64,000 nt of DNA from assembly GCA_003415625.1 (NCBI GenBank), contig PYIU01000005.1, positions 3,663,001 through 3,727,000 of the forward strand, written 5' to 3'. Source of the stretch: Aquanectria penicillioides (taxonomy: Eukaryota > Ascomycota > Sordariomycetes > Hypocreales > Nectriaceae). Below, one piece after another: positions 17,187-45,571 of the stretch (position 1 is the first letter of the stretch; each line of letters starts with the position of its first letter). A program made the position numbers and the translations under genes. Under the pieces are notes generated by a model. It saw only the letters and a program-made list of their open reading frames with translations, did no database searches and had not been told where the DNA came from.

Positions 17187-19255
17187 ATGACAACTGAGGA
17201 GAAGTCGGGCAAGGGCCCGACGGCCTGGCGCAAAGGTCAGTATTCTCTCGTCTCGCCAACCTCATCTCGCTCAACTCACCTCCCTGCCCCCATGTATTCA
17301 AGTTCAGGAGTGAAGAATAGCCCAGCGCACTTAATTGCACCTTCCATTCCTTCGAGAATGTCTTTTGCTAACTGGCCGTCTCCAACTCTAGACCCAGCTT
17401 GCGGCACGTGTCGCAAAAAGTGTCGGAAATGCGACCGCAAGCGCCCCATTTGCGACAGATGCCGGACAAAGGGCTTGCACTGCGAAGGGTACCCCCCAAG
17501 ATTCCAGTTCTGCGAGATGGTCGTGGTATCAGAACGCCGTAGACCCCCAAGCTCACAGAGCCGGGCCAAGCGGGGCAGTGTCGCTGCTTCGTCGTCTCGG
17601 TCTCTTCCGGCATCAGAGGAGTCGCCGCTGCAGGCAACTCCGGCCACAGAAGCCGAAGCCGAAGTGTCGGTTCCGGCCTCTTCAACGCAAGTGATTTCTC
17701 CTGTTGGGTCATTCTCCCCCGAGGAATCCGGTTTGATCTCCGCTGGGCTAAACCTGCCCTCGCCACCTTCGCCCTCACCGTCAGCATCCGCATCGCCCTT
17801 GTCAACTCAAGGATCGATCCAGGGACCCCTCCCCCCTCTGTCCGGGAGCCCCGATCTAGATCATGATTTGCTATCCAACCAAAAACTGATTTTACACTGT
17901 AGGATATTTTCTTTCCCAGTTTTCCTTCCCTCATCCGTTCCCAGGATTGTCTGACCTATTCGCATAGTTGACAGAGTGCTCAGCTCCACCTTGACGATTC
18001 ACATCCAAGGAACAGAAAATCCATTCAAAGATCATATACTCCCTCTAGCGTACCAGCATCAAGGAGTGCTTCACGCCTTGCTTGGTTTATCGGCATGCCA
18101 TATGTACTTGTCTGGGAAAGATGAGAGCCCTCAGAATGTCACAACAGCTCTTCAGTATCGGGTTTCGGCCCTGCACTCCCTGGCAGCCTTGCTTCTGAAG
18201 GAAGAGACGGCAGGCCTCTCAGGCTCCGAGGAAGAGTTCGTGCTAGCCATGGTCCTTTTGCTGGTTTTTCATGACGTATGTCCACCCCGAAACACGGCCG
18301 CATTTGCATCAAGCTAAGGCCTAGCGTTCCCCAGATCTGCGAGACAGGCGTGTCAACTCACGGAGCTCACTTGACGGGGGTTTCCTTTCTGTGTGGCCGC
18401 TTGGCTTGCCCACCTGACTTTTCAAGACGGTCTAGAGCAAGCATGTTCTTCGTCTCCGCCCTCGCATGGTAATCCTACACGCCACGATTCTTTCCCCATG
18501 ATCTTGCTAATTGGTGATAGGTTGGATATGCTGCGGGGCTTCAGCGGAGCAGAGAAGCTCTCTTATTCCGAGGACGTGCGCAAGTGCGTTAGGGACCACG
18601 GGAGTCTGAGCCTCCATACTCTAGTCGGCTGTCCGCCTGTCATCTTCTATCGGATTGGTCAAGTGCTGCAGGCCGGCAAAGCGTACCTCGATGGAACCTT
18701 ACCTTTAGAGCAGTTCCAAGAAATCCTTGACAGTGGGGAGAAGTTCCTGCGCGGTTGGGACCCTAATGAGGCAATCTACCCCACGAGTCACCCGGAATGG
18801 AAACACCTCGCTGAGGCGTATCGACATGCATGCCTTCTCCGGGTACTCCGTTTCCCAGACCCGTTCGCAATCTCCTGTGAAGATGAGCGAATCAAGACGT
18901 CGGTTGCTGCTATACTTGACGTTTGCGCAGCGATTCCCCGAGATTCAGCCTTTTACAAGCGCCTGCTCTTTCCATTGTTCTTGGCCGGTGCAGAGACAAC
19001 ATCTCCGCACCAGACTCATTACGCTAGCTGGTGTGTTGGCGAGATCAAGCTGTCTACTGGCTTTCAACACCCGGCCATGACAGACATGTTAACCAAAGTA
19101 TGGGAAGAGCGAAAGGTCAATACGAATGGTTGGACAAACGTCCCCTGGATGGAATTTGTGAGTTGCAGTCAAATTTCGTTACTCCTATTGCAAGCTAACT
19201 CATATAGACATGCTCTACGCTGCTCAGATCACAGCATGCCTATCTCTACTTTTGA
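17187..19255 (+). CDS. Zn2Cys6 transcription factor with fungal TF domain
   Basis: Exons are 17187-17235, 17392-17898, 17968-18275, 18335-18468, 18521-19157 and 19208-19255, 560 residues. The first intron (156 nt) precedes the zinc cluster. The cluster has the exact spacing C-x2-C-x6-C-x6-C-x2-C-x6-C (ACGTC ... RPICDRC ... GLHC) at about residues 20-45, plus one extra Cys in the first loop. A Ser/Pro-rich linker (about residues 60-180) follows, then the Fungal_trans_2-like helical region (ILHFDRV, ILPLAYQHQGVLHALLGLSACHM). The C-terminus ends CSTLLRSQHAYLYF, typical for this group. It probably regulates neighbouring metabolic genes; no binding sites could be proven. Confidence 0.9.
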
Positions 19256-41592: not shown

Positions 41593-43062
41593 TTTGAATA
41601 ATGTAAAACTTGACGACCTGCCTCTAGATTGTGAACTATGGGTCTATTTTATCTTCACACGGGGAGCTCACGTGCCCACACAGAAGGGCACCAGTAATCA
41701 GGCAGGTGCAGGCCGAATTCAAGCTGAGGGAATTTCTTTACTTACTCAAAGTCCTAGGATCGAGTACATGACGTGATAAAAGCGGAGTTTGTTCAGCTTT
41801 AGTTTGTTTGCGCAGTCTCATGACCAGAAGATTACGACGTGGGCGTTGCTGATGAAGCTTTTTGAAAGCGGACAGAATGATTATTCACCGATGCTAAATT
41901 CCCCTTGATAAGGCCGTGGAAAATCCTGTTCTTTGAATGGCCATGTTCGGCGAGGGCATTTCAATTGATGGTTATTGGTTAATCAAAAGTGCCATTAGCA
42001 TCCCGCGAGGCTGTCTCGACCAATCTAGCGACGGCACAACAATTGCTGAACATGCTGAAAAGCACCGCTGCATCGACGAAAACAAAACGTTGCAGACTAT
42101 AGTCGCAATGAGTTCCCTAAGCAGAGAGATTCCTATGGTAGTCGTGATGGGCTCCATGAGTATATATCCCGCCTGGATCTCGAGGGAGATGTTGGAACCT
42201 CCTTCTGTTCTCTATCAACACTCGCAAGTTCAAGATAAATTCATTGCTATTTTCCTATCCTCACTTATTCAATACTTGATCACACGAGGTTGAGCCGTTT
42301 CAAAGGCTTCACCCACCTGCCGCATTGCCGATCATCCACCTTTGCATGTGTCTGTTTTGGTATTGGTAATTTGGGTTGCCATGTTGCTGCTGAGAGAATG
42401 AGTCAGAAACCGGAGGCTTTTTTATTTTACTTCATTGACGGCTGCGCATAGCATTACTTTTATGTCAATGGTTAGTCGAGAAACTGTTCGATGACTTGTC
42501 ATCATGTTCGCCGGGCAAAAAGGATGGACGCATGTACACAAGATGGCAAAGATAAATGATCGATTTTAAGACGGATGTTTTCCTCATGAGTCAAAATAGT
42601 AAATGCAAGATAGTAGTGATAATACGTTGTATCTTGGAAATTTCTGAATAAAGAAAGAAAAAGACAATTAGCAAATCATTTTATCGTGATGGCGTCTTCC
42701 AGCTCATCTTCAATGGATTCCCAAGACGTAATCGAGTATTTAAATCAACACCATCCATAGGCGAAAGCGGCAATTCAACAGTCGTAGAGGCATAGTATGG
42801 CCCCTAGATCAATCTGAAGTATTGAAGTGGCTTTTTCCCTGTCACACATGCATCTCAAGAGTTTGGGAACGTCACTCGGCAGAATACGGTTTGTTGAATG
42901 ACTGTTGGGGCTGACTTACTAGCGTACGGCACCGAGATCCGAAGATTGGCGCCAAAAATGAACCCCGCACCCACAAGCTCTCCACAATCGACGAAGGATA
43001 ATCCCTCAGGAACCACGGCGAAAGTTGGCAAAAATGATGGGTTGAACCAAGGGCAAAAAGAA
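41593..43062. other. Gene-free interval (1.5 kb)
   Basis: No gene recognised. An open frame at 41937-42293 (plus) has no motifs. The right end adjoins the tRNA genes. Confidence 0.5.
43055..43059 (-). terminator. Pol III T-run after tRNA-Cys copy 1
   Basis: Five consecutive T on the transcribed-sense strand, three bases past the discriminator apart from a TTTC lead; a standard RNA polymerase III termination signal. Confidence 0.7.
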
Positions 43063-43188
43063 AGGACCGAGCGTGGATCGAACACGCGACCTAGAGATCT
43101 GCAATCTCTCGCTGTTATTGGAGTTAGTAAGGAATGATGCAGTGCGGATGTGTGAGTCAACTGACCTCTACCACTGAGCTATCGATCC
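43063..43188 (-). tRNA. tRNA-Cys (GCA) with D-arm insert, copy 1
   Basis: Reading the minus strand from 43188: 7-bp acceptor stem (GGATCGA with TCGGTCC), TA, D stem 5' strand GCTC, loop AGTGGTA, then GAG. A 54-nt insert follows (43165-43112). After it come C, G26, anticodon stem AGAGA, loop TTGCAGA (anticodon GCA), TCTCT, variable AGGTC, and a T arm GCGTG-TTCGATC-CACGC. Discriminator base is T73 at 43063, a cysteine identity element. The C after the insert is needed to pair with G10, so the insert sits between positions 24 and 25 of the D stem. A box (TAGCTCAGTGG) and B box (GTTCGATCC) are intact and a T5 terminator follows. The anticodon loop has no 37/38 intron. Confidence 0.9.
43112..43165 (-). 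other. Spliceosomal-type insert (54 nt) inside tRNA-Cys copy 1
   Basis: On the minus strand the insert begins GTCAGTTG, has TACTAAC near its 3' end and finishes AACAG. Its length and signals match the mRNA introns of this window. Excision restores a perfect D stem (GCTC with GAGC). Confidence 0.75.
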
Positions 43189-43260
43189 TCTGTTTTCAGG
43201 TGCTGGGCTGCCTGTCTAAGACAGCTTTTGAGTACACACTTGCAAGACAATAGAAATTTG

Positions 43261-43276
43261 AAAAAAACGGCAAAAA
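43261..43276 (-). terminator. Pol III T-runs after tRNA-Cys copy 2
   Basis: T5 (43272-43276) and T7 (43261-43267) on the sense strand directly downstream of the tRNA. Confidence 0.7.
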
Positions 43277-43279
43277 GAG

Positions 43280-43406
43280 AGGACCGAGCGTGGATCGAAC
43301 ACGCGACCTAGAGATCTGCAATCTCTCGCTGCACTTGGAGTCAGTACGGAATGCTTGTGGGCGAACGTATAAGGTGAACTAACCTCTACCACTGAGCTAT
43401 CGATCC
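43280..43406 (-). tRNA. tRNA-Cys (GCA) with D-arm insert, copy 2
   Basis: The exon parts (43406-43384 and 43328-43281, discriminator T at 43280) are identical to copy 1 base for base. The insert (43383-43329) is 55 nt and differs in its middle from copy 1. The mature form would be 72 nt with GCA anticodon and T73. The two genes are in tandem, about 90 bp apart, both on the minus strand. Exact identity of the exons with diverged inserts argues that the mature sequence is under selection or gene conversion and that both copies are, or recently were, functional. Confidence 0.9.
43329..43383 (-). other. Spliceosomal-type insert (55 nt) inside tRNA-Cys copy 2
   Basis: On the minus strand it begins GTTAGTTC, contains TACTGAC and ends GTGCAG. 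Shared with copy 1: GTYAGTT at the start, ATTCCKTACTRACTCCAA near the end, and CAG at the border; the rest is unrelated. Confidence 0.75.
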
Positions 43407-43742: not shown

Positions 43743-45571
43743 TCAAACATCGTCAATCCCACAACCGCCCGTCCAGCTATCCATAGTCATCCCCGCTCTG
43801 AAATGCGATGCCAGATGATCCATCCGACTTTCCCAGCTGTCCATTGTTGCCTGGCAAAATCCACATCGACTGCGAAACGTATCCTGGCGGTGCTGGAGGA
43901 GACTCAGGTCGGGTTTCCAGCCATCCCACTTGCGACATCGGTGGAACTTGTGGAGATGCTGCCATAAATGGTCCTTGCGGGTGAACTTGCGCTCCGAGAC
44001 AGCTCGCTCAGCGCAGGCGTCAAATTCGTGCGATTGGATGTGCTCGTCGGTAGGGGAGTCTTCTCCGCAAAAGATGCATTGGGGGCTGGTCTGGCTGACG
44101 CGCCATACGAGTTGGGATTGTTCAGGCGGGATGGGCAACGAACAGATCCACGAATCGAGACCGGGGAGGTGGATGGATCGTTCATGGCGGACCCAGTCAT
44201 ACTTTTTCTTGTAACTCTGGTGGCAAAAGGTGCACTGGAAGCCCTGGAGTTTTGACCGTTTCCCTCTCCCAGAAGACGTTGGTCGTGAGAGAGATGTTCC
44301 TCCCTCGCCCGCGGAGCTATTCGCCGAGCGGGAGAGCACAGAAGGCTCAACAAATGATTGCTGAGAAAAGCAAGACGATGCAGAGTTGGAAGACGCATCA
44401 TTGTGGTGGACATTGGGATATAATATGGAATCGCCGCTTGTCGAGGAACCAGGGCCATCCAACCAGGCTAGATCGTTGGTATCCAAAGATCCTTGACTGG
44501 GTGAGTGGTTGGAGAGTGCGCTTTCAATGGCCGAGGCAGATGCGGGCTCCTCGTCTGGAGGCGAATTCCTCCATCGCTCCATTGGAGACATGCCCAAATG
44601 TTGGGGCATTGGTGATCCCTGAAGAAATACTTTCGTGCCTTGGTTGCTGCGTGCGTGGGCGGATAAGCGATGGCGACGTCTTGTGTTGGCGAACCAGTTC
44701 ACCACTTGGCTTCTGCTCAGGCCGGACTCTTCTGAAAGGGCAACTTTCTCTTCCTCAGAGGGGTAAGGATGATCGAGGTGGTTAGAAAACCAATTTCTCA
44801 ACGTTCGAGTTTTCCGCACTGATCGTGTGTTGGCTCTCTTGCTCGACAATGCAGACGCTAAGGTCCTCTCGCAGCTGGCTGACTAGACTGCCCCTCGCTG
44901 AGTCGCTCCAGTGAGCCTTCGTGCTCACTCACCCCGTGAAGGTGACCAATAACGGGCATCAACGTCTCAAACTCTGAGGGAACTCGCTTCTCACGTCCAG
45001 ATAAACTGCATTCCCGGAACATGGCGACGCAACTGGAACATGACTTGGTAGGATTGGGGTTGGCCGAGCTCGTCTGGAGAATGAGGCACTGTAGGCGACG
45101 GCGCCGGCAATGGTTGCAGGGGACAGGGGGCCTATGAGCGCCGTTTTTAATGAAGAACTCATCGATGGCGGTCATGGCTGGCGGTTGAGTGCTGGTTTCG
45201 GGCTGGGCTGTGGTTTCGATCTCCATATCGCCACCGGGTTGATCCAAGAACGAAAAGCCGACATCCGGCTGCTGAGTGTTGGAGTTGATGACGGTACTGG
45301 CAGCCGCCATGACCTGCTCAAAGCTGGTCTGCCAGTCGATTTGAGGGACGCCAGGCAACTGACCTGTTGCGACTGTGGAATTCACCGTCGCTGCGTCGAT
45401 TCCAAGCATCCCGTTACTAGCGCCCAGTTCGCTGGATGGGCTGCGAGACTGCGGCATGATGTCGTCGACCTCGTCAAAGGGCATGGCCAGCGCCGAGTCA
45501 TAATCGACAGAGAACAATATGTCGTCCAGCGACAAGTCCATTCCGGACTGTCGCATAGGATCCCGATCCAT
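43743..45571 (-). CDS. Homeobox/C2H2 transcription factor with Cys6 motif
   Basis: Minus-strand exons are 45571-44933 and 44882-43743 (50-nt intron, donor GTGAGT), 592 residues. Residues about 150-190 contain C-x2-C-x6-C-x15-C-x2-C-x6-C (CNHCRRRRLQC ... CSSCVAMFREC), a spacing like a Zn2Cys6 cluster. A KN-type homeodomain follows at about 230-285 (TLRNWFSNHLDHPYPSEEEK, SRSQVVNWFANTRRRHR). Then come classical C2H2 fingers: FQCTFCHQSYKKKYDWVRHERSIH, a CxxC at CIFCGED, and CGFCQATMDSWESRMDHLASH. An acidic N-terminus could be an activation domain. It belongs to the known ascomycete homeobox-plus-zinc-finger regulators; targets unknown. Divergent from the ammonia-lyase/M20 fusion gene. Confidence 0.88.

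Follow-up and report, generated by a model that had tools for sequence, protein, structure and literature searches.

Splicing of tRNA precursors, by the TSEN endonuclease and a ligase, and splicing of pre-mRNA, by the spliceosome, are treated as separate processes, and a tRNA gene that needed the spliceosome would break this rule. The question whether such genes exist is raised by two tRNA-Cys(GCA) genes in a 64,000-nt stretch of the Aquanectria penicillioides genome (hereafter the window), each of which is interrupted within the D stem by an insert with the look of an mRNA intron. The features concerned are the following, in window coordinates.

43063..43188, minus strand: tRNA-Cys(GCA) gene, copy C9a, interrupted (Rfam RF00005, 46.5 bits)
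43166..43188, minus strand: C9a exon 1, 23 nt, with the A box TAGCTCAGTGG
43112..43165, minus strand: C9a insert, 54 nt, GTCAGT...CAG, a putative spliceosomal-type intron
43123..43129, minus strand: branch-site-like TACTAAC of the C9a insert, read from the sequence
43063..43111, minus strand: C9a exon 2, 49 nt, with anticodon GCA, the B box GTTCGATCC and T at position 73
43055..43059, minus strand: T5 run 3' of C9a, a likely Pol III terminator
43280..43406, minus strand: tRNA-Cys(GCA) gene, copy C9b, interrupted
43384..43406, minus strand: C9b exon 1, 23 nt
43329..43383, minus strand: C9b insert, 55 nt, GTTAGT...CAG, a putative spliceosomal-type intron
43340..43346, minus strand: branch-site-like TACTGAC of the C9b insert, read from the sequence
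43280..43328, minus strand: C9b exon 2, 49 nt
43272..43276, minus strand: T5 run 3' of C9b, a likely Pol III terminator

Without their inserts, C9a and C9b yield one identical 72-nt sequence with a full predicted cloverleaf, A21, the GCA anticodon, a B box and U73, a cysteine identity element; it has the sequence features of a tRNA-Cys(GCA). The insert separates D-stem positions 24 and 25 in both genes, and the two bases of pair 10-25 thus come from different exons. By sequence alone the junction might be moved by up to 2 nt, AG being the last two bases of exon 1 as well as of each insert; it is the GT-AG borders that place it at 24/25. Coordinates and sequences agree on this point with a sequence-only reading of the window, which had described two tRNA-Cys(GCA) genes of identical 72-nt mature sequence, split at 24/25 by inserts of 54 and 55 nt. 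Despite the identical exons, the Rfam tRNA model matched C9a and missed C9b, both at the gathering score and at E up to 1, and ARAGORN in bacterial mode called neither gene. If the inserts are introns, tRNA finders would miss or downgrade genes of this kind, as Rfam did here in finding one of the two window copies; the non-canonical intron search of tRNAscan-SE 2.0 is described for archaeal candidates (PMC8450103).

For one protein of the window, a deoxyribose-phosphate aldolase, the closest named matches come from Mariannaea, Cosmosporella, Stylonectria, Thelonectria and Neonectria (86-91% identity); three of these genera belong to the Nectriaceae (Hypocreales), and this single protein makes membership of that family most likely. 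A DNA search of the genome (53.76 Mb in 13 contigs) with the spliced tRNA-Cys returned four loci, namely C9a, C9b and two further copies, given here in contig coordinates.

C12:850155-850282: third interrupted tRNA-Cys(GCA) copy (C12), with a 56-nt insert at 850178-850233, at the same site as in C9a and C9b
C7:7006532-7006604: uninterrupted tRNA-Cys(GCA) copy (C7), 62.1 bits

The same four loci emerged from a pattern joining a GCA anticodon loop to a following T loop, which had 58 matches in the genome; all 58 were stem-checked and four make both stems fully, while an Rfam scan of 20 of the 54 remaining matches gave no match. Interrupted genes are thus three of the four tRNA-Cys genes found, a count that would miss any tRNA-Cys whose T loop is unusual, or whose sequence is diverged and carries a canonical intron. 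The genome-wide tRNA family search, in which 63 of 2343 candidates were scored, is not a census. Exon 1 followed by GTNNGT occurs three times in the 53.8-Mb genome, at the three interrupted loci, and not at all in the reversed control. The version of this pattern with a GGCC-type D arm, the only other D-arm type searched for, was found nowhere in the genome, and a D-arm pattern with two loop bases, the wrong loop length for tRNA-Cys, gave 10 matches, none with Rfam support. Pieces of exon 2 of 22-23 bases had no exact match in the genome_contigs or viral_contigs collections; a 17-base piece of exon 1, a string common to tRNAs in general, was present in at least 120 viral stretches. Searched against its own genome, the C9b insert matched only itself, at a sensitivity that also missed the related inserts of C9a and C12. 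The contigs C9 and C12 are exactly 4,470,000 and 3,845,000 bases long, unlike the others seen, which is possibly an effect of assembly or scaffolding.

The third copy allows the conserved parts of the inserts to be told from the rest. All three inserts begin with GTYAGT, carry TACTNAC 11-12 nt from the end and finish with CAG, the branch box reading TACTAAC in C9a and TACTGAC in C9b (each 11 nt from the insert end) and TACTCAC in C12. In a three-way alignment 14 of the 16 signal columns are invariant, as against 10 of 40 elsewhere (Fisher p = 2.4e-5), which bears out the earlier claim that the borders and the branch-like box are the conserved parts. C9a and C9b were entered in this alignment 1 and 2 nt short at their ends, outside the insert columns counted. 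Outside the signals, pairwise agreement amounts to 25, 14 and 11 of 40 columns. Global identity among the inserts is nevertheless 0.64-0.69 against shuffle means of 0.45-0.47, and by this measure the three putative tRNA introns are related by descent and are not three independent cases; since the inserts are homologous, the conservation is that of signals kept inside one family rather than gained three times. The signal pattern was matched by none of 200,000 mononucleotide shuffles for each insert, and by 9, 17 and 29 of 20,000 dinucleotide shuffles in which the first and last base were kept. Within the window, a strict pattern (GTNAGT, TACTNAC, CAG) has three matches, two of them the tRNA inserts, and none in the reversed control; the third, at 17225-17279 on the minus strand, is an intron-like stretch of 55 nt with GTGAGT, TACTGAC and CAG. 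A loose intron pattern showed no enrichment in the window, with 71 matches to the 98 of its reversed control. Pairing of GTYAGT with ACTNAC in a hairpin, for which five or six of six pairs can be drawn by eye, was dropped because one varying position mispairs in two of the three copies.

The inserts were compared with mRNA introns of the same genome, collected through protein-family searches for chaperonins and actins. Fourteen stretches, chosen for short gaps, were fetched and introns were read in 12 of them, six chaperonin and six actin-family (L215 and L220 were left out), with borders set by eye from reading frames and GT-AG and least certain in L214 and L266. These 12 introns are 49-76 nt long, the 49 nt of L213 being a length set by eye, and have CTNAC or CTNAT 8-15 nt from the 3' end. 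The corresponding values for the tRNA inserts are a length of 54-56 nt and a CTNAC 11-12 nt from the end. Fusarium introns, by way of reference, have a median length of 57 nt and a CTRAY branch in 91% (PMC5677156). The 3' end is CAG in all three tRNA inserts, and one of the 12 mRNA introns ends in AAG. The CTCAC branch of the C12 insert, which lies outside the common CTRAY form and outside the variants that source gives for Fusarium (PMC5677156), is also present in one of the 12 mRNA introns.

At the 5' side, the site GAG|GTYAGT matches the U1 complement at 7 of 9 positions, compared with 4-7 in the 12 mRNA introns. When scored with the frequencies given for four Fusarium species (PMC5677156), the 5' splice sites of the three tRNA inserts come out above those of 6, 7 and 7 of the 12 mRNA introns; among sites drawn from the same frequencies they rank at the 34th-41st percentile. 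The departure is at intron position +3, which is a pyrimidine in all three tRNA inserts versus none of the 12 mRNA introns, the figure for Fusarium being 10% (PMC5677156). Both C and T are found at this position in the tRNA inserts, so that what is kept is Y rather than one base. The first base of exon 2 is C, a minority choice. In length, signals and spacing, as read from the sequences, the tRNA inserts resemble this genome's mRNA introns in all but the +3 pyrimidine, and they combine what is expected of U2-type introns: a GT site with U1 complementarity, a branch motif at a suitable distance, a 3' YAG and a size within the range.

Several accounts of the inserts can be weighed. The one we hold to be probable, with some confidence, sees in them U2-type spliceosomal introns and in their hosts functional nuclear tRNA-Cys(GCA) genes, whichever polymerase transcribes these. 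This reading had already been proposed from the two window copies, and it has gained from the signals kept in a third, diverged copy, from the matching mRNA introns and from the lack of a bulge-helix-bulge (BHB) at the junctions, described below. From the sequence of the loci we infer functional tRNA-Cys(GCA) genes, with a mature RNA and its charging predicted. Most likely, Pol III would transcribe the genes by way of their A and B boxes, which are intact, and stop at the T-run; U1 would recognise GUYAGU and U2 would recognise UACUNAC; the spliceosome would remove the intron as a lariat and join GAG to C, by which the fourth D-stem pair (10-25) would be completed; and RNase P, tRNase Z and CCA addition would then act as usual. 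Pol III transcription, spliceosomal removal, the order of the steps, charging and use are all steps that we infer. Were they to hold, a Pol III tRNA precursor could be a substrate of the spliceosome, and the translation of one amino acid would be tied to mRNA-splicing capacity.

The part assigned to Pol III follows from the promoter and terminator elements: neither the A box nor the B box is disrupted, the insert bringing the distance between them to 87-89 nt, and a T5 run lies within ~10 nt of the 3' end of each gene, for which reason Pol III is the likely polymerase. The same elements tell against a variant of the preferred reading in which the spliceosome would act within Pol II non-coding transcripts, from which the tRNA is released or not. 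Such transcripts are where spliceosomal introns normally occur, and a minus-strand ORF at 43743-44849 ends ~340 nt upstream of C9b, from which read-through is conceivable if it is a real gene; the flanks, however, differ at the third copy, C12. When 150-nt flanks were compared in six pairings, five gave values inside the spread of 100 shuffles. The exception, the downstream flanks of C9a and C12, reached 0.54; this equals the highest shuffle value and exceeds the shuffle mean by ~4 standard deviations, so that C9a and C12 may share some downstream similarity. We rate transcription by Pol II as unlikely, with the proviso that, as a variant, it shares part of the probability given to spliceosomal introns as a whole.

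That spliceosomal introns interrupt working genes is disputed by a second alternative, according to which C9a, C9b and C12 are dead genes or go unspliced, C7 supplies all tRNA-Cys and the inserts are merely intron-like. An intact C7 copy with 62.1 bits does exist, and a short insertion in the D or T arm of a eukaryotic tRNA gene is generally taken as the mark of a pseudogene (PMC4090602). The exons, however, show no difference over 72 positions among C9a, C9b and C12 while inserts and flanks have diverged, and with identical exons around diverged inserts gene conversion would need to homogenise both exons and yet spare the 54-56-nt insert between them. Decay of the two window copies in related strains had been named at the outset among the findings that would refute the idea; in this genome the interrupted copies show no sign of decay, and with three of the four genes interrupted the case is not one of a single stray copy.

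C7, on which this alternative leans, is itself odd. The spliced product and C7 differ at three sites: C7 has one extra C in the D-loop, and one anticodon-stem pair (A-U in the spliced product) is replaced in it by another pair. Position 21, which precedes the 3' strand of the D stem, is C in C7, whereas all of the 38 other distinct sequences compared have A there, these being 37 from the genome (40 of the 61 other tRNA loci were fetched and identical ones taken once) and the spliced tRNA-Cys. The predicted D-stem pair probability, in a calculation that ignores modifications and proteins, is 0.19 for C7 versus 0.73-0.74 for the spliced tRNA, and the lowest-energy predicted fold of C7 pairs CGAGCG with CGCTCG and forms neither the D nor the T stem. 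The poor predicted folding is no more than suggestive; a supply of tRNA-Cys by C7 with three dead companions seems to us improbable.

The same copy decides how far the consequences reach. It had been proposed that the interrupted genes might be the only source of tRNA-Cys(GCA) and that cysteine decoding would in that case depend on mRNA-type splicing. Against the first part stands one intact gene, C7, although the several intact genes that were to count against the whole idea did not appear. The second part is weakened, because an uninterrupted gene exists, and retains some force from the aberrant D-loop of C7 and its poor folding in silico; dependence of cysteine decoding on splicing is thus possible despite C7. 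In its strongest form the proposal would make the spliceosome an essential tRNA-maturation machine, with three of the four nuclear tRNA-Cys genes needing splicing, the D arm of C7 defective and cysteine decoding largely dependent on a spliceosome acting on Pol III transcripts. This we advance tentatively, giving it somewhat less than an even chance.

The remaining candidate for removal of the inserts is the tRNA endonuclease. A BHB was sought at the junctions in three registers; a strict central helix had no more than 2 of 4 pairs in any of them, and relaxing it raised the best count to 3 of 4. Predicted folding of the precursors does not surpass that of shuffled sequences (z of -0.02, -0.80 and -0.77), and in a search for a conserved fold 1 of 31 predicted consensus pairs covaries. 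The inserts lie at 24/25 and not at 37/38, the position expected for TSEN. With neither a BHB nor a conserved fold the tRNA endonuclease is a poor candidate, as had been supposed of any D-stem insert, and TSEN/BHB splicing was rejected on these two grounds. Elsewhere in the genome, 21 other tRNA hits of at least 83 nt all have an uninterrupted D stem (21 of 21), their extra length lying beyond the 5' strand of the anticodon stem. In these 21 the anticodon stem can close over a 17-32 nt loop in at least one register, as expected for ordinary tRNA introns, although in some of them long variable arms and the several registers allow more than one place for the extra length. A spliceosome-like string anywhere in the gene was present in one of the 21 (L222) and is taken for chance. 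That the tRNA-Cys inserts are likewise tRNA-type introns, placed at a non-canonical position, cut by TSEN and sealed by tRNA ligase, is very improbable: D-arm tRNA introns do exist in nucleomorphs, with similar ones in Cyanidioschyzon (PMC4090602), and TSEN is presumably present, given the long tRNA genes with extra length in the anticodon-loop region, but neither BHB nor conserved fold was found and this account gives no reason why GTYAGT, TACTNAC and CAG should be the conserved parts.

Set beside known systems, the putative spliceosomal introns of tRNA-Cys share one feature or another with each and coincide with none of those compared. The ordinary tRNA introns of the same genome also lie in nuclear tRNA genes, but leave the D stem uninterrupted in all 21 cases. 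Ascomycete rRNA genes carry spliceosomal introns, so that a structural RNA from a polymerase other than Pol II contains introns of the mRNA type, although the transcript is one of Pol I and the RNA a different one from the tRNA-Cys considered here. Among eukaryotic tRNA genes, introns are mostly at the canonical position, the D-arm cases of a red alga and of nucleomorphs being exceptions (PMC4090602). Cyanidioschyzon merolae and the nucleomorphs thus resemble the present case in having D-arm-interrupted eukaryotic tRNA genes (PMC4090602), but the Guillardia nucleomorph introns measure 3-24 nt and in the red alga BHB motifs seem critical (PMC4090602), whereas the tRNA-Cys inserts are 54-56 nt long with mRNA-type signals, and no BHB was found in them. 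The open-licence literature searched, as far as its accessible text goes, did not describe any nuclear tRNA gene with a spliceosomal intron, which is weak evidence of novelty.

Fission-yeast U6 snRNA offers an mRNA-type intron in a Pol III transcript (PMC10484740), and the likeness is that of a spliceosomal intron inside a small structured Pol III RNA (PMC10484740). The difference lies in the host, since U6 is a part of the spliceosome and its intron is thought to stem from reverse splicing, whereas the host here is a tRNA. In the present genome the best U6 match covers the whole model over 104 nt and so carries no such intron; a second U6-like locus (C1:3831993-3832088, 69 bits), whose 5' part is unlike that of the main U6 locus, may be a copy that is diverged or incomplete. 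Small non-coding RNAs with an mRNA-type intron are therefore already known, and the novelty in Aquanectria penicillioides would lie in a tRNA as host, one that Pol III probably makes.
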